In this document: piece by piece, positions 46,468 through 61,793 of the stretch
Numbering within the stretch: the first letter of the stretch is position 1
Layout: each line of letters opens with the position of its first letter
Assembly: GCA_029245345.1 (NCBI GenBank)
Contig: JAQWPM010000024.1
Span: forward strand, 124,001-188,000
Reading direction: 5' to 3'
From: Longimicrobiales bacterium
Lineage (GTDB): Bacteria; Gemmatimonadota; Gemmatimonadetes; Longimicrobiales; Gaopeijiaceae
Length of the DNA stretch: 64,000 bases
Notes under the pieces: generated by a model
Databases searched by the model: none
Told to the model about the DNA's origin: nothing
What the model saw: only the letters and a program-made list of their open reading frames with translations
Position numbers and translations under genes: made by a program

Positions 46468-49400
46468 ATGTCCCGAAGCGATGTCCGCAAAGGGATCCTC
46501 CGTTCGGCCATGCGCTCATTCGTCACTGGTGCATTTATGGTCATGCTTGCTTGGGTTCCGGCCCAAGCGCAGACCGGCACGGTTACGGGTACAGTGCGGA
46601 ACGCTACCAGCGGGCAGCCCATCGCGGGTGCCCAGGTTAGTATCCCAGCACTGAACATTGGCGCACTGGCCAACAACGTGGGTCGGTATCTCCTGCTGAA
46701 CGTTCCAGCAGGTACACACTCCGTGCAGGTCCAGTACATCGGATACGGCTCGGAATCAGTTGAAGTCACCGTGGCTGCCGGTCAGACGGCAGCTGCTGAC
46801 GCTCGACTCCGCTCCGAGGCGATCAGCCTTGACGGTGTTGTCGTTACAGGTACGGCCGGCGCAGCACGCCGGCGCGAGGTTGGTAACTCGATCTCTCAGA
46901 TCAACGAAGCTCAGATCGAGGCAGCGCCGATTTCCAACGTTGCCGACATTCTTCAGGGCCGTGCCACTGGCGCGACCGTGCTGAGCAACGGTGGGCAGGT
47001 TGGCGCCGGTAGCACGATCAAGCTGCGCGGTAACAACTCGATCTCCCAGGGCAACTCGCCGCTCGTCTACATTGACGGGATTCGTATGCGTGCGTCGGCG
47101 CTGTTCAACTCGGACGAGGCCAACCAGGGCTCGAACCCGATAGACGACATCAACCCTGACGACATCGAGCGTATCGAAGTCATCAAGGGTGCTGCGGCCA
47201 CGACGCTTTACGGCACCGAGGCTGCGGGTGGTGTGATCCAGATCTTCACGAAGCGTGGCTCGGCAGGTGCGCCGGCTTGGACGCTCAGCATGGATCAGGG
47301 CATCAACACCTTGGGGCACATTGGTCCGGATGCCGACGTAAACCCGACCGGTCTTGGATTGAACAACTGCAACTACACCGAGAACGGTGGGGACGCGATG
47401 TTCCCGGCCGACGTTTCTTGCCCGGCCTCTGGCTCGTGGCTCAAGAACGGATACTCACATAACTACAACCTCTCCGTTCGTGGTGGCGCCGAACGCATGA
47501 ACTACTTCATGTCGGCAGCCTGGGGCGACGAGCGCGGTATTTTCAATCCCGACGCTTGTGGCACTGACGGCACGGGCGCGAAGAGCTGTGGTGAGGCTGC
47601 TGGCTACACGAACCCTGCCCAGGGTGCGAACACGTGGAGCCTTCGCGGGAACTTCTCCTTCTCTCCGATGGACGAGTTGGACATTCGCTTCAACACGTTC
47701 TACAGCCACAAGAACATCGACTGGGCGCCTGACGGCAACAATGCCGAAGGTCTCCTCCTGAACGTCTTCCGCGGTGGTTCGGACTACACGAACGACACCG
47801 ATGGTAAGACGCTCACAATGGGCCTTAATCAGCTGAACGATCACTTCGTGACGGGCGTGAACATGCTCTTCAACCCGGGTAACGGGATGAGCCACCGCCT
47901 GAACGCGGGTATCGACTGGACGCGGAACACGTACCGCGAAGATCGCCCATGGGGTTTCTTCTATCGGCCCCAGGGAGAGCGTGAGGTCGATGACCGCACC
48001 TTCCGTAAGATGACACTCGACTACGCAGGTACGTGGGAAGCGGACCTCTTCGGTGCCGCGTCCTCGTTATCGTGGGGTGCCCAGCTGTACAACGACTTCA
48101 GCTCTGGTATCAACGGTTTCGGTGAGGGTTTTGCCGGCCCCGGTGATAAGGTTCTGGAGTCGGGCGCCGTCACCGAGGCTTACGAGTACAACTCGACGGT
48201 CACGAGCGGTGGGTTCTTCGTACAGCAGCAGTTCGGTCTCGGGGACAAGCTGTTCCTGACGGCCGGTCTGCGTGTTGACGGTCACTCGGCGTTCGGTTCG
48301 GACTTCGGCCTCGAGCCGTACCCGAAGGCGTCCGCCGCCTACGTCATTTCCGACGAAGGCTTCTTCCCGGAAAACTTCGGGATGCTCAAGCTGCGTGCAG
48401 CCATCGGTGAGTCCGGCAAGGCGCCGGGCCTCTTCGACGCCGCTCGCACGTGGTCGTCGGTCGCTGGTGATAACGGCCAGCCTGGCGTTTCGCCGGACAA
48501 CCTTGGTAACCCGGACCTCGGCCCCGAGCGCACGCTCGAGTGGGAGTTCGGTTTCGAGGGTTCGACGTTCAACGATCGTGTGCAGTTCGAATACACGTAC
48601 TACGATCAGACGACGTCCGACGCGCTCGTTGGCGTCCGCCAGCTGCCGTCGGGTGGTTTCGTCGGTACGCAGCTCGAAAACGTGGGTAAGGTCACCAACA
48701 GCGGCCACGAGATCTTCGTGAACGCGACTCTGGTCGCTGGGGACAACTTCTCTTGGGACCTCGGTGGACAGTACTCCACCAACAAGTCTGGTGTTGTTGA
48801 TCTCGGTGGTCTCGAGAGCATCAACGTTGGGTGGCGGAACTACATCCGTGCGCCGATCGAGTGCACGGCGGAACTCGCGAACGGTGCCGACTGGGACGGT
48901 TCCGGCTTCATCGGGCAGGGTTGTACGCCCGGTGAGATGGTCACTTTCCCGCTGCCGGCGTTCTGCCACGATCGTGTGCAGAACCCGGACGTGGTTGGGG
49001 CTCCGGTGTTCAAAGAGCAGTGCCTAGGCGCGACAACGCCGGCGCACACGTTCGGCATCAACACCTCGATCACGATCGCTTCACGTCTGACGCTGGACGT
49101 GCTCGGCGAGGGCATGGGCGGCCACGTGCTGTCCTCCGGTACTGCATACCAGAACGCGCGTCGTCGCGTGTGGCCGCTGTGCCGGTCCACGGTCGAAGCT
49201 GAAGCGGCTGGTAACGTGGCTGCAATGACGGCTGGTGAGCGCGCTCTCTGTCTGCGTAGCAACACGCGCTACGGCATGTGGACGCAGCCGGCGGACTTCT
49301 TCAAGATCCGCTCAGCCTCGCTGAGCTACCGTGTGCCCGATGGCATGCTGCCGTCGAGCATTCGTGGTGCTACGGTGCGTCTCCAGGGCCGCAACCTCTT

Positions 49401-49533
49401 CACGAAGACGGACTATGAGGGCGTTGACCCTGAGGCGTTTGAAGACGGTTCGCTCGAGGTGCTTTTCCGGCAGGAGTACTACAACCTCCCGCCAATTCGC
49501 AGCTTCCAGCTGTCGGTCAAAATTGACTTTTAA
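46468..49533 (+). CDS. SusC/RagA-type TonB-linked outer membrane protein
   Basis: A 1021-residue outer-membrane transporter. A signal peptide (MVMLAWVPAQAQ) is followed by a carboxypeptidase-regulatory-like domain (GTVRNATSGQPIAGAQVSIP), then the plug: VVVTGTAGAAR, INEAQIEAAPISNVADILQG and IYIDGIRMR-type strand (LVYIDGIRM), and a large beta-barrel ending SFQLSVKIDF, an outer-membrane terminal strand with a final Phe. With SusD it should import oligosaccharides, peptides or other large nutrients using TonB energy. Codon use leans heavily to AAC, TTC, CGT and GGT, which suggests high expression. Confidence 0.95.
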   Translation: MSRSDVRKGILRSAMRSFVTGAFMVMLAWVPAQAQTGTVTGTVRNATSGQPIAGAQVSIPALNIGALANNVGRYLLLNVPAGTHSVQVQYIGYGSESVEVTVAAGQTAAADARLRSEAISLDGVVVTGTAGAARRREVGNSISQINEAQIEAAPISNVADILQGRATGATVLSNGGQVGAGSTIKLRGNNSISQGNSPLVYIDGIRMRASALFNSDEANQGSNPIDDINPDDIERIEVIKGAAATTLYGTEAAGGVIQIFTKRGSAGAPAWTLSMDQGINTLGHIGPDADVNPTGLGLNNCNYTENGGDAMFPADVSCPASGSWLKNGYSHNYNLSVRGGAERMNYFMSAAWGDERGIFNPDACGTDGTGAKSCGEAAGYTNPAQGANTWSLRGNFSFSPMDELDIRFNTFYSHKNIDWAPDGNNAEGLLLNVFRGGSDYTNDTDGKTLTMGLNQLNDHFVTGVNMLFNPGNGMSHRLNAGIDWTRNTYREDRPWGFFYRPQGEREVDDRTFRKMTLDYAGTWEADLFGAASSLSWGAQLYNDFSSGINGFGEGFAGPGDKVLESGAVTEAYEYNSTVTSGGFFVQQQFGLGDKLFLTAGLRVDGHSAFGSDFGLEPYPKASAAYVISDEGFFPENFGMLKLRAAIGESGKAPGLFDAARTWSSVAGDNGQPGVSPDNLGNPDLGPERTLEWEFGFEGSTFNDRVQFEYTYYDQTTSDALVGVRQLPSGGFVGTQLENVGKVTNSGHEIFVNATLVAGDNFSWDLGGQYSTNKSGVVDLGGLESINVGWRNYIRAPIECTAELANGADWDGSGFIGQGCTPGEMVTFPLPAFCHDRVQNPDVVGAPVFKEQCLGATTPAHTFGINTSITIASRLTLDVLGEGMGGHVLSSGTAYQNARRRVWPLCRSTVEAEAAGNVAAMTAGERALCLRSNTRYGMWTQPADFFKIRSASLSYRVPDGMLPSSIRGATVRLQGRNLFTKTDYEGVDPEAFEDGSLEVLFRQEYYNLPPIRSFQLSVKIDF

Positions 49534-49548
49534 TAGCCAGGAGAAATC

Positions 49549-50907
49549 ATGAATTCCATGAAAAAGCGCTGGCTCCCGCTCGTAGCCCTTGTGGCGACGT
49601 TCGGAATGGCCGGCTGTAGCGACAACCTCTTCGAGGTGAAGAACCCGGGTCGGATTCTCGACGCGGATTTGAACACGGTGAAGGGCGTCAATGCACTTGT
49701 GACGGGAATGTCTTCTGACTTCTCGGCTGGGTATGACAATATGGCCTTCACAACCGCCATTCTCAGTGATGAGATGGTGGGCTCGGGCTCGTATTTTTCG
49801 ACCGGGCGTTATCGCCGGGGTCTGTTCGATTCTGAGGATTCGGACGGATTCTGGAACAGCGTGCAGCGTGCGCGCTGGGTAGCTGAGGGCGGATTGCAGC
49901 GTATGGCAGCAATCGAGGGCTTTTCCTTCGCAGGTAATGAGAGCACGGCGCGAGCCTATCTCTTTGCCGGTCTCGCGAACCGTTGGTTCGGTGAGAACTT
50001 CTGCGAGGTCGTGTTCAGCAAACCGTACACCGACGAGGCACCTGGCCCCGGTGGTGAGATCGATACAGGTCAGCCGCTTCCGCGAACCGCCGCTTTCGAG
50101 CGCGCGATTCCGGCTTTGCAGGCCGCGATGTCCAACGGTTCGGGTGATATTGTAACCGCGGCCCACGGTGGGCTGGCGTCGGCATACGTTGGGCTAGGAA
50201 ACTGGTCTTCGGCGATGAGTGAAGCTGCTCAGGTACCGACGAACTTCGTTCACTACGCGGTCTTCTCCGGGAACTCAGGTCGGGAAGAGAGTCAGATCTG
50301 GAACGAGACCCATGGTCGTGCTGAGATTTCGGCGTGGGGAACGCTTGCCGGTACGGTAGGCGAGGGTGATCCCCGCACACCATGGACGGACTGCAGCCTT
50401 GGTTCGTGCCCGTCGGCGAACGGTGCCGATGGTGAAACGATCCATTTCCGCCAGGACAAGTATCCTGAGAAGGGGTCGGACATCCCTCTCGTGAAGGGTA
50501 CGGACATGCGGCTACTCGAGGCTGAGAACGCGCTGCTGACCGGAGATCTCGGAGTGTTTACATCCAAGATCAACGAGGTGCGTGCGTTCCACGGTCTCGC
50601 GGCGATCGCAGCGGTGACATCCGCTGGTTCTCTCACTGGTGGAACGTTCGGGAAGGACGGCACTCTTGGTGGTGCCAGCGCGACGTCCATGACCGGTTGG
50701 GATGTGCTCGATCGTGAGCGCCACCTGACGATGTGGCTTGAAGGTCGCCGTCTTTGGGACCTCCATCGTTGGGATCATCCCCATCTTAACGGTGGTGGGA
50801 TTGTGTACTCGGCGACGGTTGCCCGTCGCTCGTCCTGCTTCCCGATCTCCGATCAGGAATGCCAGGTCAACGACAATGTGCCCAACTCGAAGTGCGTCAC
50901 GATGTAG
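49549..50907 (+). CDS. SusD/RagB-family surface lipoprotein
   Basis: A 452-residue lipoprotein. The signal ends in lipobox MAGC, then LFEVKNPGRILDADL and later the mostly helical body with DRERHLTMWLEGRRLWDLHRW, the standard SusD C-terminal motif. It caps the SusC barrel encoded 15 bases upstream and helps bind the substrate. The substrate is not indicated; neighbouring genes lack glycosidases, so a peptide or another ligand is as likely as a glycan. A strong terminator follows. Confidence 0.92.
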   Translation: MNSMKKRWLPLVALVATFGMAGCSDNLFEVKNPGRILDADLNTVKGVNALVTGMSSDFSAGYDNMAFTTAILSDEMVGSGSYFSTGRYRRGLFDSEDSDGFWNSVQRARWVAEGGLQRMAAIEGFSFAGNESTARAYLFAGLANRWFGENFCEVVFSKPYTDEAPGPGGEIDTGQPLPRTAAFERAIPALQAAMSNGSGDIVTAAHGGLASAYVGLGNWSSAMSEAAQVPTNFVHYAVFSGNSGREESQIWNETHGRAEISAWGTLAGTVGEGDPRTPWTDCSLGSCPSANGADGETIHFRQDKYPEKGSDIPLVKGTDMRLLEAENALLTGDLGVFTSKINEVRAFHGLAAIAAVTSAGSLTGGTFGKDGTLGGASATSMTGWDVLDRERHLTMWLEGRRLWDLHRWDHPHLNGGGIVYSATVARRSSCFPISDQECQVNDNVPNSKCVTM

Positions 50908-51917: not shown

Positions 51918-52571
51918 TTAACCCTGGGGCGGGAAGACGACTTCGAAGGGCGGAGGGCCGACATGGACGGATCCTCCTTGCCGGAGCGACTCGTCCGCGC
52001 TCCACACCAGGAAGTCGTAATCGCCCTCGTTCAGCTTCGTGAATGTGAAGGTGCCGTCACGGTCGGCGAATACCGAATGTGAGGCGTCTGTGATGTAGAC
52101 GAAGGCTCTCATGCCCGGGTGAGCCGCGCACGCTACATCGACCCCTCCGGATACTTCGAAAACGACGTCTACGGATTCGTCCGGATCGGCATCCCGGTCG
52201 AAAAACGGAGCCGCCTCACCGACACGTGTCAGCCGTACATTGTGGGGCAGGCTCTCGCTGTTGGTAAACGTCACCGTCGAACCTGTGGGCACGATGAGTT
52301 GGGAGGGCGAGAACTGAAGGCCGATCTGGTCGACTGTGGCTGAGCCAGGCTGAATCGCATGGCCGCCGAGTGGTGTCAGTGAGACGATAGATGGGATCCC
52401 ACCCACGGCCGGCGGAGCCTGACCATAGACGGTCTGAACGTCTATCTCCTCGGGTGAGTCCACCTCGCCAGGCGGAGCGGCGCACGCTAGAGCGTGCACC
52501 GCCACCGCGGCGAGAAGGATGTGGCGGAGCAACGGACTCGCCTTAGCGGTCCATTCCACCGCGAACTTCAT
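51918..52571 (-). CDS. Cupredoxin-like lipoprotein
   Basis: A 217-residue protein with a signal and lipobox ALAC. The central domain is a cupredoxin: FSPSQLIVPTGSTVTFTN, the first ligand in LPHNVRL and the Cys/His/Met set in CAAHPGM, a complete type 1 copper site. A beta-rich C-terminal domain (TFTFTKLNEGDYDFLVW) resembles a carboxypeptidase-regulatory or transthyretin-like fold. It could pass electrons or carry copper in the periplasm. Its start overlaps the end of the VPS10/BNR gene by 29 bases. Confidence 0.8.
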   Translation of the reverse strand: MKFAVEWTAKASPLLRHILLAAVAVHALACAAPPGEVDSPEEIDVQTVYGQAPPAVGGIPSIVSLTPLGGHAIQPGSATVDQIGLQFSPSQLIVPTGSTVTFTNSESLPHNVRLTRVGEAAPFFDRDADPDESVDVVFEVSGGVDVACAAHPGMRAFVYITDASHSVFADRDGTFTFTKLNEGDYDFLVWSADESLRQGGSVHVGPPPFEVVFPPQG

Positions 52572-55509
52572 CGAACAGCGACTTCGCCAGATGGAACTGC
52601 TGACGATGAGTGGTTGTTGGCGGGTACAGCGTGCCACCGCGTACCTGGCCGCCGTTTAGCGAGCTGTATGCCCCGCCAACTGCGCGCATCGCGGCGGTAA
52701 GCTTGCCCTGAGGGGTGTCGATTGGCGGACCGCCCCCGCGCCCGAAGCCCCGACCTCCGCCTCCGCCCATGCCGTTTTCACGCATGTAGGCCTGGATCTC
52801 GGCGGTGAGCGCTTGGGCCTCGAGCATGAAACGTTCACGAGCGTCGTACATGTCTTGCGTGATCTGCGGCATTTCGGGGTCACCGCGCACCGTGAAATGT
52901 GTCGAGTTGCTCGATCCGTTCGCGGAGACCGTCGCCGTGTACACTCCCGGCGTGACCCAAGCCCCCCGGTTCCCTATTGGGCGGGCGAGTTCAGGGTTGT
53001 CCCACGCGGCCCACGTCTCGGAACCAGAACCTGTCGAGTGACGGAGGTCCCAATTCACGCGGTGCACTCCGGAGCCGCCCGGAACACTTATCTCGCGGAT
53101 CACATCCCCGTTTGGGTGAGTGATTGCCAGGGTGGCACTGCCGCCGCTCGCGAGCTTGTACGTGATCTCGACACCGTCGACCGGGTTCTTCCCGAGGTAG
53201 TCTGCCTGTCCGCGGTACGACGTGTCCTTCTTGTAGACCATGATCGTGCCGGTCGGGACCGAGAAGACCGTAACCGGAGCGTTGGCATCGGCCCATTCGG
53301 CGATCGCGCGTGTGTCGTCGAGGATCCAGAATCCGCGACCGTGCGTACCCATCACGAGGTCTTTCTCACGTGGGTGGATCACCATGTCGTCGTAGTGCGT
53401 CGTCGGGAGGTTCGGCACCTTCGCCCAGTTTGTGCCCGCATCCGTGCTGGCGAAGACGTGGTGCTCGGTTCCGACGAAGAGCGTGTTCGGGTTGTCGGGG
53501 TGCTCTACGATGACGTTGACGACGCCCATGTCCGGTAGGGCTGCGTGGAGGGGCTCCCAACTCATACCGAAGTCTTCTGTCCGGTAGACATAAGGACTGA
53601 AGTCGCCTGCCCGGTGGTCATCGAACGTCGCGTAGGCGGTTCCGGGGGCCGTGAAGGACGCTGCAATGCGGCTGACGTAAGCACCGTCACGAATGCCTTG
53701 GACGTTTCCGGAAACTTCGCTCCAGGTCGCGCCGAAGTTCTGGCTGACCTGGAGATTGCCGTCGTCGAAGCCGACCCAGAGTACCGCAGGATCGACCGGG
53801 GACTCATCGAGTGTGACCGCTTCACCCCAACTGCTGGTACCGTCGTTTCGTGAGATCGTGATATCCGAGCCACGCACGCCCTGGATCTCCAGGTCATCGC
53901 GGTCGATTTGCCGCGACAGGTCTTCGGTGCTCGTCCACGACTCACCCTTGTTGGGTGAAGTGAAGAACCGGTTGCCTGCCACATACAGCACGTCCGGGTT
54001 GTGCTGGGAGAGCATCATCGGTGACGTCCAGTCGAACCGATAGCTCACACCGAGCGGGGCCCTCGGCGAGATGTCGAGGTTGTCGCCGGTGATGGCGTCG
54101 TACCGGAAATATGTTCCACCGTTTGAGCTGCCGTACGTGAAGCGTGCGCTCCTGGGGTCGGCCTGCCAGTACATGCCATCACCGAATCCGCTCTGCATCC
54201 AATCGTCATTCAAGATGCCAGCCCAGCGACGGGTCTCTGACGGACCGAAGAACGAGTGGTTGTCCTGGAGCCCTCCGTAGACCCAGTACGGGTCTCGCAT
54301 GTCCACGCCGAGCGCGTAGAACTGGGCGATGGGGAAGTTGTTGATTCTGCGGAAGTTCTCTCCACCGTCGTAGGACTCGTTCAGCCCTGCGTCGCCCGCG
54401 AGGTAGATGTGCTGTGTGTCGTTCGGGTCGATCCACAAGGCGTGGTGATCCGCGTGTACGCCCACATCGTACGTCGGCGCCCGCGCGATGGACGTCCAGG
54501 TGCGTCCGCCGTCGCGGCTGACGCTCGAGCGTGTTGCGAGCGTGTACACGACGTCCTCGTCCGTTGGGTCGATCCAGATGTGCGAGTAATACATAGGGCG
54601 GATGTCGAGATCGCTGACGCGCTCCCACATCAAGCCGCCATTCTCCGAGCGGTACGTCCCCTGCGTCTCACCACTCGCTGTCTCGACCAGAGCGTTGAGG
54701 ACCTGCGGGTTCGACTCTGAGATCGCGATCCCGATGCGACCCTTGTCCCCTGCGGGCAGGCCGCCCTCGAGTTCGTTCCACGTCGCGCCGCCGTCCGTTG
54801 ATTTGTGGATGCCACTGCCGGGACCACCGCCATTGAAGCCCCAGGCGGTACGCTGCCGTTGATATGTGGCGGCGTAGATCGTGTTCGGGTTGCTCATGTC
54901 CATGACCATGTCGACGACGCCCGTATATTCGTCGATATAGAGGACTTTGTCCCAGCTGCGGCCACCGTCGGTCGTCTTGAACACCCCTCGATCTTCAGAG
55001 GGCGCCCACAGGTTCCCCATTGCCGCGACGTACGCAATGTCCGGGTTGGAGGGATGCACCCTGACACGCCCGATGTGGCGGGTCTCAGCGAGGCCTAGGT
55101 GAGTCCAGCTGTCACCGCCGTCGGTCGTCTTGTAGACGCCGTTTCCGTAGGACGTGCTTTGCCGGTTCTGCTGCTCACCGGTCCCGACGTAGATGACGTC
55201 GTTGTTCGACCGCGAGATGTCGACATCACCGAAGGTGCTCACCGCCATCGTGTCAAAGACGTTCGTCCACGTCTGGCCGCGGTTGGTGGTCCTCCAAAGC
55301 CCGCCAGAGGCCGCCGCCACGAACATGGTCGACGGGTCGGACGGGAGCGCCTCTACATCGTGGATGCGACCGCCGGTCGCTGCGGGCCCGATGGAACGAG
55401 CTTCCAGGGCGCGCATGTCGTCTGTGGCGATGGCCTGTGCAGACACAGCAACAGGGATCAGCGTCGCCAGTGCGGCGAGCAAGGTCAGAGCGTTCATGGT
55501 GTGCTTCAT
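52543..55509 (-). CDS. VPS10/sortilin-type BNR-repeat exported protein
   Basis: A 988-residue protein with a signal peptide (AALATLIPVAVSAQA). Repeated Asp-box motifs (SxDGGxxW-type, for example SKDGGATWNE-like STDGGATWN and SENGGLMW, KTTDGGDSWTH) mark a ten-bladed beta-propeller of the VPS10/sortilin kind. After about residue 840 there is a Gly-rich hinge (GGGGGRGFGRGGG) and a helical end. Such proteins are abundant in marine Gram-negative bacteria and are thought to bind or process peptides or glycans; some are called glycosyl hydrolases without proof. The ATG at 55509 overlaps the exonuclease stop. Confidence 0.9.
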   Translation of the reverse strand: MKHTMNALTLLAALATLIPVAVSAQAIATDDMRALEARSIGPAATGGRIHDVEALPSDPSTMFVAAASGGLWRTTNRGQTWTNVFDTMAVSTFGDVDISRSNNDVIYVGTGEQQNRQSTSYGNGVYKTTDGGDSWTHLGLAETRHIGRVRVHPSNPDIAYVAAMGNLWAPSEDRGVFKTTDGGRSWDKVLYIDEYTGVVDMVMDMSNPNTIYAATYQRQRTAWGFNGGGPGSGIHKSTDGGATWNELEGGLPAGDKGRIGIAISESNPQVLNALVETASGETQGTYRSENGGLMWERVSDLDIRPMYYSHIWIDPTDEDVVYTLATRSSVSRDGGRTWTSIARAPTYDVGVHADHHALWIDPNDTQHIYLAGDAGLNESYDGGENFRRINNFPIAQFYALGVDMRDPYWVYGGLQDNHSFFGPSETRRWAGILNDDWMQSGFGDGMYWQADPRSARFTYGSSNGGTYFRYDAITGDNLDISPRAPLGVSYRFDWTSPMMLSQHNPDVLYVAGNRFFTSPNKGESWTSTEDLSRQIDRDDLEIQGVRGSDITISRNDGTSSWGEAVTLDESPVDPAVLWVGFDDGNLQVSQNFGATWSEVSGNVQGIRDGAYVSRIAASFTAPGTAYATFDDHRAGDFSPYVYRTEDFGMSWEPLHAALPDMGVVNVIVEHPDNPNTLFVGTEHHVFASTDAGTNWAKVPNLPTTHYDDMVIHPREKDLVMGTHGRGFWILDDTRAIAEWADANAPVTVFSVPTGTIMVYKKDTSYRGQADYLGKNPVDGVEITYKLASGGSATLAITHPNGDVIREISVPGGSGVHRVNWDLRHSTGSGSETWAAWDNPELARPIGNRGAWVTPGVYTATVSANGSSNSTHFTVRGDPEMPQITQDMYDARERFMLEAQALTAEIQAYMRENGMGGGGGRGFGRGGGPPIDTPQGKLTAAMRAVGGAYSSLNGGQVRGGTLYPPTTTHRQQFHLAKSLFDEVRGGMDR

Positions 55510-56330
55510 GGTGTGTCGCTCCCGGGTTCCGGGTCGTTGGTTGCAGGTTTTGGTAGTGCGGCTGAGTCGAGAGCCGATTTCACCACCTTGATGACGTCGT
55601 CGTCCATGTCGTCCAAGCTCGTCATCCACTTCAGGTAGTCGGGCGCTGTAGCCGCTATTGTGGCGAGCGGCTGCCCTTTGTGCTTCCCACGTCTAAAGAC
55701 ACGTCCGTCCTCGGGGCTGCTGAACCAGCGATCCACCTCCGTACGGAACGGGCGGAACGTCTGGCAGTAGTCGTGCAGACCGTCCAAGTCCTGCGGAATA
55801 TCGGGATACCGTTCGAGTTGTGCTCCAAGGACGGCCGCTGACGTGCGGATGTCGCCGAGCGCGGTATGAGCTTCTTCGTGCTCTCGGCCAAGATAGAATC
55901 GTGCTGCCGCCGAAAGATCCCTCGGCTCTTCCTTATGGAAGATGTTCTGCATGTCGAGGAGACGCCTGCCTTCGACGGAGAAGCTGATGCCGCATCGCTT
56001 GAATTCGGCGATGAGCACGTGGATATCGAAGCCCTTGATATTAAAGCCGGACAGATCGCTACCCGCGATCAGTTGGTCGTGCAGATTGCGAGCTGTGCGG
56101 CAGAACGGGAGTTCGTTCGCGACGTCTTCGTCCGTAATGCCGTGCACAGCCGTTGATTCCGCTGGAATAGGCATCTCGGGGTTGTATCTGCGCACCTTCT
56201 CGAGCACGTCCCCCTGGGGCGTGATCTTGATGAGTGCGAGTTCCACGATCCGGTCTTTCTTGACGTCGAGCCCTGTGGTCTCGAGGTCGAAGAAGATGAG
56301 CGGTCGGTCGAGTTCGAAGGGTAGTTGCAT
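55506..56330 (-). CDS. 3'-5' exonuclease, DnaQ/epsilon-like (DEDDh)
   Basis: A 274-residue nuclease. Exo I is FFDLETTGLD (Asp and Glu), Exo II is NIKGFDIHVL, and Exo III is HTALGDIRTSA, the HxAxxD pattern. An extra C-terminal segment with RRGKHKGQPLATIAA and DYLKWM resembles a small wing found in some exonuclease proteins. It trims single-stranded DNA or RNA ends, as a proofreading or maturation enzyme. The ATG at 56330 was chosen; the upstream extension is not conserved. Being in one operon with an exported propeller protein is odd. Confidence 0.88.
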   Translation of the reverse strand: MQLPFELDRPLIFFDLETTGLDVKKDRIVELALIKITPQGDVLEKVRRYNPEMPIPAESTAVHGITDEDVANELPFCRTARNLHDQLIAGSDLSGFNIKGFDIHVLIAEFKRCGISFSVEGRRLLDMQNIFHKEEPRDLSAAARFYLGREHEEAHTALGDIRTSAAVLGAQLERYPDIPQDLDGLHDYCQTFRPFRTEVDRWFSSPEDGRVFRRGKHKGQPLATIAATAPDYLKWMTSLDDMDDDVIKVVKSALDSAALPKPATNDPEPGSDTP

Positions 56331-57384: not shown

Positions 57385-58956
57385 TCAGTTGCTGGCGAAG
57401 CTGGCCGTCTGGCACGTGCCCTCAAAGCCGATTTCACAGGCTCGAGCGAAGAGGCGGTCGGGGTCTCGTTCGGTGACTGGACCCTTGGCGCCGCGGATTA
57501 CGAGCGGGAGATCATCCAGTGTGGGGACCGCGGAGGTGAGCGTCCTGTTCCCGGACGACAGTCGCAGCCCGTTCTCGCACGCAGGGTCGAATCCGAGTTC
57601 GCATCCAGCCTGCAGAGCTCCCAGCGCCTCCCCGTCTCCAGAATTGCGCTGAACGAGGAGGACGGCGAGCTCATTGCAGGCCCAGCCGGAGCCCTGTATA
57701 CAGATGTCCTGCTGGAAAGAGGCGAGGTATACACATCCTCGGTCCGAGCCCTCGGAGCATGCGGTCTGCCAGAAGGGGATCCACTGGCCCGGGTGGTCGT
57801 CTCGGAATCCTCCGGCCCCATAGATGCCGGCGAAGATCGCGATCCAGATGCCGACGATGGCGAGGTTCCGGCGGATGCCGGTGGTCTGAGGAGCCACGGC
57901 GGAGAGATCGAGTTTCCGTAGCGGCCCCGAGGTCACCCATCGATCGACCATCTGAATCATCATGTTCAGAATCAAGACCGGGAGCAGCTTGTCGTAGAAC
58001 GACGGAGCTTCGAGCGCTCGCAGGACCACGACGAGGACCACGACCCCGAGGCCATACATCATGCCGTAAACGACCCGTCCGGTTTCAGTCCTGGGCGAGG
58101 TCGACGGGTCTGTCTGGAGGAGGTGCATGCCCAGGAAGACCGCAATGGGAATGTACGCTTCGTAGAAGAAGTACGTGCCCGTAATGGCGAAGAAGGCCAC
58201 CCCGAAGGCGTACACGGTGACCACGGAGGCTACGGTCATCGTGGCGACGCCGAACAGGATTTGAACCGGTATCGAGACAGCGAACAGGAATGCGTGGATG
58301 TTCGGTGGATCGAAGAGCCGTGTCGCGATGTCCACGCCGAAGGTGGTGTCGGTCGCGTTCGTGGCGATCAATCCAATGGAGAAAATGGCCAGCGGGAAGG
58401 ACGACGGATTGAAGATGTGTGTGGAGCGACCGTTCTTCTCCCAGCGAATGAACTCCTTCGTCAGGTAGCCGAGCGCGATCATCCCAAACTGCCAATAGAA
58501 CCAGTCCGGCTTGAAGAGCAGGAACAGGTTGATGCTGAAGATGATGGGGAACGGTCCGAACCCTAGTTCGAAGTGTTCCCGTCGGGACCAAGCGAGCAGC
58601 GCGCTGAATCCATATGCGAAGACCAGCTGCGCCAGAATGAGTACAGCGAATCCTCGGATCAACGGGACGTACCAACCCCAGTACAGGTAGATCGCCGCTT
58701 GTGTGCTCAGCTGGACGTAGTGCGGCTTCCGGGGGATGACCGCGAGAGTGAACGTGCGTCCCGAGGCTCGAGCGGACAGGCCTAAAGCTACGGCCCAGAT
58801 CGCGAGGAACGCTGCGGCCCCGATGGTCGACCGACCAATGACGGGGCTCGATCGGAGTGCGAACCCGATTGCCGCCAAGACCACGGCGAACGCCACGGGC
58901 AGCAGGAGAGCTCGCCCGCGGCCGAGCGGCTCTGCCTCTGTGATGGGTGCGTTCAA
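57385..58956 (-). CDS. RnfD/UnbU-like membrane protein fused to Sel1-like disulphide repeats
   Basis: A 523-residue protein. Residues 15-385 hold about ten transmembrane segments with HIFNPSSFPLAIF (180-192) and TDPSTSPRTETGRVVYG (282-298), the pattern of the RnfD/NqrB relatives called UnbU beside enediyne genes. From about 395 the chain turns into soluble repeats. Four Cys pairs, each eight residues apart (400/408, 419/427, 452/460, 507/515), resemble the CX7C Sel1-like repeats of Helicobacter Hcp proteins. The membrane part may carry electrons or flavin; the tail may bind partners outside the cell. Function is inferred only. Confidence 0.75.
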   Translation of the reverse strand: MNAPITEAEPLGRGRALLLPVAFAVVLAAIGFALRSSPVIGRSTIGAAAFLAIWAVALGLSARASGRTFTLAVIPRKPHYVQLSTQAAIYLYWGWYVPLIRGFAVLILAQLVFAYGFSALLAWSRREHFELGFGPFPIIFSINLFLLFKPDWFYWQFGMIALGYLTKEFIRWEKNGRSTHIFNPSSFPLAIFSIGLIATNATDTTFGVDIATRLFDPPNIHAFLFAVSIPVQILFGVATMTVASVVTVYAFGVAFFAITGTYFFYEAYIPIAVFLGMHLLQTDPSTSPRTETGRVVYGMMYGLGVVVLVVVLRALEAPSFYDKLLPVLILNMMIQMVDRWVTSGPLRKLDLSAVAPQTTGIRRNLAIVGIWIAIFAGIYGAGGFRDDHPGQWIPFWQTACSEGSDRGCVYLASFQQDICIQGSGWACNELAVLLVQRNSGDGEALGALQAGCELGFDPACENGLRLSSGNRTLTSAVPTLDDLPLVIRGAKGPVTERDPDRLFARACEIGFEGTCQTASFASN

Positions 58957-58976
58957 GTGGGTCCCTCCATGGGTGC

Positions 58977-61793
58977 CTATTGGGCGTCCAATCCCAGCGC
59001 CTCTAGGACCAATTCCTCTTGCTGGGCCGCGTGCCTCGTCGCCTTGCCTTCCGCGGGTGATGCCCGCTCAGGACGCGCAACGTACGTGAGTGGCACCGTC
59101 CGCGGCACTACGCTCCGTAGCCGAGGCCCGACAAAAGTCAGGGCTCCCATGTTGCGAGGCTCTTCTTGCGTCCAAACGACGTGCTTGAGGTTCGGGTAAC
59201 GGGCGAGCAGCGCTTTCAAGGCGTCGGTTGGGAAGGGGTACAACAGCTCCTGACGCGCCACGGCCGCATTTGAGGCGTCCGGTCGGCGCTCGTGCGCTTG
59301 GATGTCGTAGTAGATCTTGCCTGTGCACAAGACCAGTCGCTCGATCGCATCGGCGTCTTCCACGGTTGGGTCGTCGAGCACGTGTTGGAAGTTGCCCTCG
59401 GTCAGTTCGGAGACTGCAGAAGCGGCTGATGGGAGCCGGAGGAGGCTCTTTGGCGTCATGACGATCATAGGGCGCTCCGGTCTCCGGAGTGCTTGGCGTC
59501 TGAGCATGTGGAAGTACTGAGCAGGGGTCGTCGGGTAGGTGACCCGCATGTTCTGCTCCGCACACAACTGCAGGAAGCGTTCGAGACGCGCGCTCGAGTG
59601 CTCTGGACCTTGGCCTTCGTGCCCGTGAGGCAGGAGTAGCGTGAGGCGTGAGTACTGCCCCCACTTCATATGCCCGGACGATAAGAACTGGTCGATCATG
59701 ACCTGAGCGACGTTGACGAAGTCGCCGAACTGCGCTTCCCAGAGAACGACGTCCTCGTCCGCGGCCACCGAGTATCCGTACTCGAAGCCGATCACCGCCG
59801 TTTCGGTCAGGGGCGAGTTGTGGACCTCGAGACGTGCGTCCGACACGCTCTGGAGAGGCGTCGCGAGCGCACCCGTCTCAACATCATGAAGAACAATGTG
59901 ACGGTGGCTGAACGTGCCACGTTGAACGTCCTGGCCCGTCAAGCGGATCGGAATATTTTGGTTGAGAAGAGAACCGAAGGCGAGAGTCTCAGCGTGGCCC
60001 CAATCGATCTGCTTCTCTGGAGAGAAATCCTGCCCTCGCCGGGAGAGCTGGCGCCACAACTTGGGGTGCGGCGTGAATCCGTCTGGTATCTTAAGTGATG
60101 CCGTGTTGATCCCCGAGAGGACTTCGAAGTCGACACCTGTCGACTCGGGCACCACAGGCACTTCCCGTTCCTCGTCCGGTGTGTCGTCGCCGACCGGGTC
60201 GAACTCGCGTACGTGGTCTTGAGCGTCCCGGAGCGTGGACGACACCTCGTTTTGGATCGCTTCAGCCTCGTCCTTACTCACCACGCCTTCGTCAGCGAGG
60301 CGATCTGCGTAGATCGTACGGGCCGTTGGATGACTCGCGATCTTGGCGTTCTCCATGGGCTGCGTGTACGCTGGCTCGTCTCCCTCGTTGTGCCCGTGGC
60401 GCCGATACCCGACGAGGTCGATTACGAAATCGTCGTTGAATTGGGCGCGGTACATCATGGCCAAGCGGATCGTAGCTAGGCAGGCCTCGGCGTCGTCAGC
60501 GTTCACGTGCACGATCGGGATTCCGTATCCCTTAGCGAGATCACTCGAATACGTGGTTGAGCGGGCGTCGCGAGGGTCGGTCGTGAAGCCCACCTGGTTG
60601 TTCACGATGATGTGGACGGTGCCGCCCACGTCGTAGCCGTGGAGGCGAGACATGTTCAACGTTTCCGCGACGACTCCCTCCGCTGCGAACGCGGCGTCGC
60701 CATGCATGAGCACCGGCACGACCCGCTCGCCAGCTCTGACAGCGTCCTTGGACGAGGAGTCGAACTGGGTCGCTCGCGTCATGCCTGCGACAACGGGGTT
60801 CACGAACTCGAGATGACTCGGATTCGGGGCCAAACGGATCTGGACGGTTCCTGCACCATCGACCTCGCGCTCGCCACGGGCACCATGGTGGTACTTCACG
60901 TCTCCGGTGCCTGGGATGTCGAGCTGGCCTCCTTTGTAGGAGGGGCCCTCGAATTCCGCCAGAAGTTCGCCGTACGAGACGCCGAGCGTGTGCGTGAGCA
61001 CGTTAAGGCGTCCGCGGTGCGCCATGCCGAGCACGACCTTGTCACCGCCCGCACGTGCTGTTTCGTCGATCGTCAGGTCCAACATCGGGACTAACGCGTC
61101 ATTCCCCTCGAGAGAAAAGCGCTTCTGTCCTAGGTAGGCCCGGTGAAGGAACTGCTCGAGACCTTCGACGTTTGAGAGCTTGCGCAGGAGTCCGCGCTTT
61201 TCGTCTGCACTCATCTCGGGCATGTGGGAGTGTGACTCGACCTGATCCCACAGCCAGTCGACCTTCACATGGTCGTCGAGGTGCTCGAATTCATATCCGA
61301 TCGTTCCTGTGTAGATCTCACCGAAGTACCGGAGAGCATCTGCGACGGACTCTCCTTCTCCGTTCTCGTCCATGACCAGCGATGCTGGCAACTCGTCGAG
61401 TTCCTCCATGGATGTGCCGAAGTAGGACGGGGTCAGCTGGGGATGCCCCGGCGGTTCCGACCCTAGAGGGTCGATCCGAGCGAGGCGGTGACCGTGATCC
61501 CGGAAAGCTTGTACGAGAGCCGTGGCGCGCGAAACGACTGGGAGGGCTGCCCGAAGGCTCTCGGCGGCTTCGGAGGTCGGTGCCGGTGCGTATGCTGGGG
61601 CCGGGGCCATCGGGGCCGCCTGGGTCTCATCAATCTGATCCGGTACGAAGAGGCCTTCAGCAACGGCCTGCGAGCCTTGCTTCTCGAAAAGGGTTCGCCA
61701 CTCCGCGGGCACCGCCTCGGGATTGCGAGCGTATTCCTCGAACATCGCCTGTGCGTAGGCGGCGTTCTGGCTATCGAAGAGGTTGTCGTCCAT
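58977..61793 (-). CDS. sucA: 2-oxoglutarate dehydrogenase E1 component
   Basis: A 938-residue thiamine-diphosphate enzyme that decarboxylates 2-oxoglutarate in the TCA cycle. The start MDDNLFDSQNAAYAQAMFEEY, the middle KVVLGMAHRGRLNVL, DAAFAAEGVVAETLNMS and VDLVGYRRHGHNEGDEP are all SucA blocks. The lipoyl-transferase partner SucB is not in the window. Next to it on the same strand is the RnfD-like gene, 20 bases downstream. Confidence 0.95.
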   Translation of the reverse strand: MDDNLFDSQNAAYAQAMFEEYARNPEAVPAEWRTLFEKQGSQAVAEGLFVPDQIDETQAAPMAPAPAYAPAPTSEAAESLRAALPVVSRATALVQAFRDHGHRLARIDPLGSEPPGHPQLTPSYFGTSMEELDELPASLVMDENGEGESVADALRYFGEIYTGTIGYEFEHLDDHVKVDWLWDQVESHSHMPEMSADEKRGLLRKLSNVEGLEQFLHRAYLGQKRFSLEGNDALVPMLDLTIDETARAGGDKVVLGMAHRGRLNVLTHTLGVSYGELLAEFEGPSYKGGQLDIPGTGDVKYHHGARGEREVDGAGTVQIRLAPNPSHLEFVNPVVAGMTRATQFDSSSKDAVRAGERVVPVLMHGDAAFAAEGVVAETLNMSRLHGYDVGGTVHIIVNNQVGFTTDPRDARSTTYSSDLAKGYGIPIVHVNADDAEACLATIRLAMMYRAQFNDDFVIDLVGYRRHGHNEGDEPAYTQPMENAKIASHPTARTIYADRLADEGVVSKDEAEAIQNEVSSTLRDAQDHVREFDPVGDDTPDEEREVPVVPESTGVDFEVLSGINTASLKIPDGFTPHPKLWRQLSRRGQDFSPEKQIDWGHAETLAFGSLLNQNIPIRLTGQDVQRGTFSHRHIVLHDVETGALATPLQSVSDARLEVHNSPLTETAVIGFEYGYSVAADEDVVLWEAQFGDFVNVAQVMIDQFLSSGHMKWGQYSRLTLLLPHGHEGQGPEHSSARLERFLQLCAEQNMRVTYPTTPAQYFHMLRRQALRRPERPMIVMTPKSLLRLPSAASAVSELTEGNFQHVLDDPTVEDADAIERLVLCTGKIYYDIQAHERRPDASNAAVARQELLYPFPTDALKALLARYPNLKHVVWTQEEPRNMGALTFVGPRLRSVVPRTVPLTYVARPERASPAEGKATRHAAQQEELVLEALGLDAQ

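Follow-up and report, generated by a model that had tools for sequence, protein, structure and literature searches.

The fused gene and its surroundings

The window, by which we mean the whole stretch of 64,000 nucleotides analysed, carries on its minus strand (57385..58956) a coding sequence of 523 amino acids for an RnfD/NqrB (UnbU)-like membrane protein with an Hcp-type tail, as recognised from the open reading frame, the Pfam family PF03116 and a family profile. The frame is open over its full length and begins with a TTG start codon, preceded at 6 nt by GGAGGG (58963..58968, minus strand), read from the sequence as a probable ribosome-binding site. The gene for the E1 component of 2-oxoglutarate dehydrogenase (58977-61793, same strand) ends 20 bases before this start. 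On the basis of PF03116, hydropathy, loop charge and a model match to RnfD, the membrane domain was assigned to aa 1-383 (57808..58956, minus strand); it includes the motif TDPSTSP with D283 (aa 282-288; 58093..58113, minus strand), located by alignment with NqrB. The remaining 140 residues (aa 384-523; 57388..57807, minus strand) form a tail predicted to be extracytoplasmic and Hcp/Sel1-like from profile, charge and a model of the tail.

In the opposite orientation, on the plus strand, lie genes for a SusC/RagA TonB-dependent receptor (46468..49533), a SusD-like lipoprotein (49549..50907; PF07980) and a secreted protein with a CarboxypepD_reg and a plug-like part and no barrel, termed C12 (51045..51914). 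They are 68-72%, 65-68% and 53-59% identical, respectively, to their counterparts at three loci of other genomes (L131, L133 and L135), and two cysteines of C12 are conserved in its orthologues. The SusC/SusD genes are 5.5 kb away from the fused gene with four genes between; among the genes of this interval is one for a plastocyanin/azurin-like copper protein (PF00127; 51918-52637, minus strand), flanked by the SusC/SusD genes on one side and by the gene of a sortilin-like protein (52543-55629) on the other. The search for RNA families found none in the 64-kb window.

The membrane domain is of the RnfD/NqrB type

The earlier note, made from the sequence alone, had described a ten-helix RnfD/UnbU-like domain. 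The kinship was borne out by PF03116, which matches aa 229-342 at 30.4 bits (Pfam cut-off 27.7), and by profile comparison. The family profile, built from 18 homologues (alignment A1) and searched against PDB sequences, matched RnfD and NqrB structures with aa 273-348 at E-values of 0.0077-0.02 (RnfD 7zc6, 0.0077; NqrB 9lrr, 0.01), and hhalign against E. coli RsxD gave an E-value of 1.2e-5 and a probability of 81, with a probability of 0.5 for the RsxG control. Two homologues with extended tails score below the PF03116 cut-off (19.6 and 22.9 bits), and the window protein stays far under the thresholds of the narrower equivalog/subfamily models (rnfD, 22.4 vs 207.05; nqrB, 18.1 vs 349.9). The C-terminal half shared with RnfD/NqrB comprises aa 272-344, including TDPxTSP..T..GR. 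The N-terminal half gave no significant hhalign match to the RnfD/NqrB alignment (E 0.27); by eye only, W152, K167-E168 and F182-N183-P184 follow the order of the W..AK[EQ]..FNP residues of RnfD/NqrB, and H180 stands at the expected place of NqrB N200. The overall fold also appears to be shared, as the whole-protein AlphaFold2 model, a poor one computed from five sequences (pLDDT 55), matches RnfD at Z 9.7 (rmsd 4.3, 177 residues aligned) and NqrB at Z 8.6.

Unlike RnfD/NqrB, the window protein has an extra final helix and the Hcp-type tail. Across the 18 homologues, hydropathy points to some 13 hydrophobic segments, of which the final one is the helix that bears the tail; a count of ten helices is not established. 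Positive charges are concentrated in the loops at aa 62-82, 119-136, 168-183 and 338-362 (on average 4.1, 2.2, 3.3 and 4.8 K+R over the 18 homologues), with 0-1.0 K+R in the loops between them; at 282-296 the excess of positive charge is only slight (2.1 vs 1.6). Directly before the last helix K+R outnumber D+E (4.8 vs 2.6 per sequence), while at the start of the tail the balance is reversed (1.2 vs 2.7). Under the positive-inside rule this pattern would place the loop before the last helix in the cytoplasm and the tail in the periplasm. The end of the RnfD homology near aa 345, where RsxD has its basic tail end, agrees with a periplasmic tail. The charge distribution therefore sides with the extracytoplasmic tail first proposed and against a cytoplasmic one. 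Architecture, as read from the sequences, and sidedness, as predicted from the charge rule and homology, are together very probably correct.

An Hcp-type tail with four conserved cysteine pairs

The protein contains exactly eight cysteines, all within its last 124 residues, and these make up four CX7C pairs seen in the sequence and the homologue alignment (all minus strand): C400/C408 (57733..57759), C419/C427 (57676..57702), C452/C460 (57577..57603) and C507/C515 (57412..57438). When the 139-aa tail was shuffled 200,000 times, four disjoint pairs never arose and three arose 220 times. The four pairs with partners eight residues apart, reported beforehand, are thus confirmed, and so is their conservation. 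We counted cysteines in 78 aligned open frames that score 450 bits or more and are 400 aa or longer, leaving out copies with truncations, deletions or interruptions (L016, L021/L034, L022/L041). All 78 have both cysteines of pairs 1 and 2, and 77 have those of pair 3, likewise 77 those of pair 4; the exception for pair 3 is L004, where the whole unit is deleted, and for pair 4 the fused protein L046, which retains one cysteine in the 78-row alignment and neither in A1. The spacing becomes CX8C in some rows, e.g. in L081.

The family profile recovered, with the tail region, HcpC (1ouv) at an E-value of 1.3e-9 and HcpB (1klx) at 0.0063 among PDB sequences. AlphaFold2 modelled the tail alone with a pLDDT of 81.9 and a pTM of 0.78, and Foldseek ranked HcpC and HcpB first and second for this model (probability 0.98/0.99, E 0.019/0.033), its E-values remaining above 0.001 for the tail model and the whole-protein model alike. 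By VIA the tail model reached Z 7-8.5, with Sel1 and TPR proteins tied. The Pfam Sel1 model (PF08238) found no match in the window tail at E<=10; its cut-off of 30.7 bits is exceeded by extra repeats of the homologues L117 (49.0 bits) and L147 (42.4 bits), and because it is passed only there we call the window tail Hcp-like. The nine Sel1 matches in the genome all lie in other genes. A relation to Sel1/Hcp proteins is supported by the family profile, the homologues with extra repeats and the predicted tail structure, and the Hcp-type Sel1-like tail of the first reading holds on the strength of the HcpC match and the top Foldseek ranks.

The Helicobacter pylori proteins HcpB and HcpC share with the tail the CX7C pairs and a probable Sel1-like solenoid. 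Hcp proteins are secreted and free, whereas the window tail is tethered to a membrane domain; it further differs in the short gap between pairs 1 and 2 and in the spacer of about 46 residues ahead of pair 4. The CX7C spacing is that of the structural disulfides of Hcp proteins, according to PMC3851747, and by this analogy the cysteine pairs are more likely to be structural locks than redox-active.

Spread of the fused family over two phyla

The same fusion, for which the earlier note had suggested searching, was found in many genomes of two phyla. The family is present in 13 of 39 genomes of relatives and in 73 of 395 genomes of the phylum of the window, in 71 of which a match reaches into the tail. 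Among Acidobacteriota, the phylum of the genome of L002, 29 of 396 genomes gave a match; two of these matches belong to other families, one combining ankyrin with Sel1 (G445) and the other being a true RnfD (G771), which leaves 27. The former (L149:7939-9369) looks by eye like an ankyrin-repeat protein with Sel1-like cysteine-pair units at its end. The homologues in A1 are 38-56% identical to the window protein and share many invariant residues.

A membrane-domain tree of the 78 frames resolved clade A (35 rows, SH-aLRT 84), which includes the window protein and has HxGQ before the tail, and clade B (33 rows, SH-aLRT 97), with HxGD at this position; ten rows fall outside both. What is new is a fused family present in two phyla, with neighbours that differ by clade. 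In one genome (G001, contig C70; L034:9419-10666) a second copy has an internal deletion that fuses the middle of the membrane domain to the tail, and a multihaem cytochrome c/TPR protein is encoded directly after it.

Neighbouring genes differ by clade

In L131, L133 and L135 the genes run without interruption in the order SusC-SusD-plug-like-fused gene, in L036 and L139 in the order fused gene-other plug-like-SusC-SusD, and in L042 the fused gene is followed by SusC and SusD. At two of these loci (L131 and L133, genus g36) the SusC-SusD-plug-like genes are followed by the fused gene twice in tandem. Among 41 fused-gene loci examined over a wide range, SusC-type genes (cluster c1) occur in 10 and SusD-type genes (c2) in 9, all of clade A; both clusters are absent from all ten wide loci of clade B and from most clade-A neighbourhoods (e.g. 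L034, L037, L039, L040, L138, L143). The genome of the window has three SusD (PF07980) matches over the cut-off; with three such genes and 20 kb around each in 3.79 Mb, we estimate that a SusD gene within 10 kb would be a chance event of about 2%. The four intervening genes in the window and the absence of these clusters from most clade-A loci weigh against such a link.

In clade B a gene of the sulfatase-modifying-factor (FGE/SUMF1)-like family (PF03781) adjoins the fused gene in 31 of 33 rows, compared with none of the 45 other rows. Both genes share one strand, and the partner's frame either overlaps the end of the fused gene or starts within 8 bases of it; in G004 the two form a single frame of 876 aa. 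In the two exceptions, L102 retains a 25-residue FGE-like remnant and L110 nothing. The partner, which is not encoded in the window, matches PF03781, the family of ToxD, CalU17, PorK/GldK and PvdO, at 165.8 bits; the best PDB matches of the FGE-like protein at L044:10948-11868 include ToxD and CalU17. Unlike FGE, 28 of the 31 partners have a CPxC in another loop, and in eight of them its cysteines are the only two of the open frame. The copper site of FGE consists of two cysteines, so that such a site is impossible in at least these eight partners.

Cluster c6 and DUF6152 genes surround the fused gene in Acidobacteria (L143:4184-9608, L004:5284-7523, L002:5625-7906). The c6 members scanned had no Pfam or NCBIfam match, and these genes gave no lead.

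UnbV genes and the enediyne connection

In our reading UnbU corresponds to E5 in the enediyne PKS cassette and owes its name to the UnbV-UnbU pair; to our knowledge UnbU, though part of the conserved cassette, has no known role. PMC5181780 names the cassette E10/E/E5/E4/E3. The window protein resembles UnbU as an RnfD-like membrane protein, and in two acidobacterial genomes, G663 (L117/L146) and G594 (L148), a gene with an ASPIC domain (UnbV) lies directly upstream and ends where the fused gene begins; in L001 an UnbV gene is 2.6 kb away. The genome of the window departs from the UnbU arrangement in that its 12 UnbV_ASPIC matches are all on contigs other than that of the fused gene. UnbV-type genes, which the earlier note had suggested looking for elsewhere in the genome, are present there, and in two Acidobacteria one is a direct neighbour of the fused gene. 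Ten of the 12 matches are found on contig C21 at 257-298 kb, in an array (C21:257528-298263; L050, L051) together with a TPR protein and, at L050:11964-14993, a protein resembling a TPR-multihaem cytochrome. No fused gene adjoins UnbV at the 16 UnbV loci examined with flanks of about 1.5 kb, nor in the window. A tblastn search of a plasmid collection gave no match. Our searches of the open-access literature yielded no paper describing a Sel1-type tail attached to UnbU or RnfD, none linking RnfD with enediynes, no relevant one on UnbU by name and none combining any two of UnbV, RnfD and SusD.

Flavin sites and partner subunits

The protein had been proposed to be a membrane redox carrier, and this part of the first reading stood only in part. 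ApbE flavinylation motifs for covalent FMN on Thr, of the form D..[ST].A[ST], were found in 0 of the 18 homologues. A looser pattern, [ST][GQAS]A[ST] (TGAT/TGAS), occurs in three of the 18 at no conserved place and was rejected as an FMN site. Proteins of the RnfA/RnfE/NqrD/NqrE type (PF02508) gave 0 matches in the genome of the window, which is 98.03% complete and has two ApbE genes and a single PF03116 match. RnfD/NqrB, by contrast, carry covalent FMN and riboflavin, as stated in PMC12174285, the covalent FMN motif having the form [S/T]GA[S/T] (PMC8238504). What is kept is D283, invariant in all 18 homologues and aligned with NqrB D346, which binds riboflavin according to PMC10643135. Thus the riboflavin-ligand aspartate speaks for a redox carrier, and the missing FMN motif and RnfA/RnfE-type subunits speak against it. 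Most likely the membrane domain keeps a non-covalent riboflavin, and electron transfer by it is possible, if doubtful. The redox role had been put with too much certainty; the protein itself is real and conserved.

A proposed docking module in the membrane, and its alternatives

What the sequences themselves carry is the architecture, the conservation of the cysteine pairs and the links to neighbouring genes. From these we propose that the fused protein is an orphan inner-membrane protein of RnfD/NqrB fold, UnbU type, in which the extra helix after the RnfD-like core would cross the membrane and place an Hcp-type Sel1-like solenoid on its periplasmic side. The presumed CX7C disulfides would hold the repeats rigid as in HcpB and HcpC, and because they would lock them in this way, the tail might be a docking surface and not a thiol catalyst. 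By means of this surface the membrane domain may acquire an envelope partner that differs by clade, namely the SusC/SusD uptake complex with its plug-like secreted companion in clade A, the sulfatase-modifying-factor-like protein in clade B and UnbV in some Acidobacteria. The membrane domain, with its presumed riboflavin, could then carry electrons between the quinones of the membrane and the partner docked there, or the cargo of that partner. Taken as a whole, the reading as a module in the membrane whose disulfide-locked tail docks envelope partners has in our view a probability of about 0.5, and the docking of the SusC/SusD and plug-like, FGE-like and UnbV partners in particular is an even bet.

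The loss of redox function has also to be weighed, as a close likeness of NqrB to transporters of urea and ammonium is described in PMC10643135 and PMC12174285, and a transport role is therefore a live rival. The NqrB/RnfD fold would then conduct a small solute or ion delivered by SusC/SusD, with the tail gating it or docking the partner. This likeness, the lack of a covalent FMN motif and of Rnf/Nqr subunits and the TonB-dependent uptake genes adjoining the fused gene in several genomes would all suit such a role, and UnbU of the enediyne clusters might be a transporter too. However, the invariant aspartate of TDP is the riboflavin ligand of NqrB and would be odd if flavin had been lost, clade B is tied to the FGE-like gene rather than to uptake genes, and the channel folds RhCG and Amt reached Foldseek probabilities of only 0.25 and 0.10 with the whole model. 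We regard transport as somewhat unlikely. Improbable, in our view, is a thiol-disulfide relay, DsbB/DsbD-like in effect, in which the eight tail cysteines and the clade-B CPxC would exchange electrons with the membrane domain as source or sink. The near-invariance of the tail cysteines, the CPxC of the FGE-like partners (28/31, sole cysteines in eight) and the two conserved cysteines of the plug-like partner are what it would predict, but CX7C fits the structural Hcp disulfides (PMC3851747) and not CXXC redox sites, and the losses seen, of the complete unit of pair 3 in L004 and of both cysteines of pair 4 in L046 (in A1), are of the kind expected for local structural bonds. That an RnfD-like pseudogene was accidentally joined to a repeat tail as a non-functional relic is most improbable, for although some copies are broken by stops or an internal deletion (L018/L022/L021), the same architecture recurs in 71 of the 73 genomes with a match in the phylum and in 27 acidobacterial ones, with the identity and invariant residues noted above.

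A module with a docking tail might be taken further, to an envelope system not described so far, in which an orphan riboflavin-only NqrB-like protein, with neither covalent FMN nor an Rnf/Nqr partner, would join the quinone pool through its Hcp docking tail to SusC/SusD and plug-like uptake or to a SUMF1-like CPxC protein, the enediyne UnbU/UnbV being a specialised offshoot; this we consider rather unlikely. The fused family is a large and clean set of UnbU-like proteins with named neighbours (UnbV, SusC/SusD and SUMF1-like) in free-living bacteria. It thus offers a tractable route to the role of UnbU and raises the question of whether a lone protein of the NqrB fold can run on riboflavin alone.
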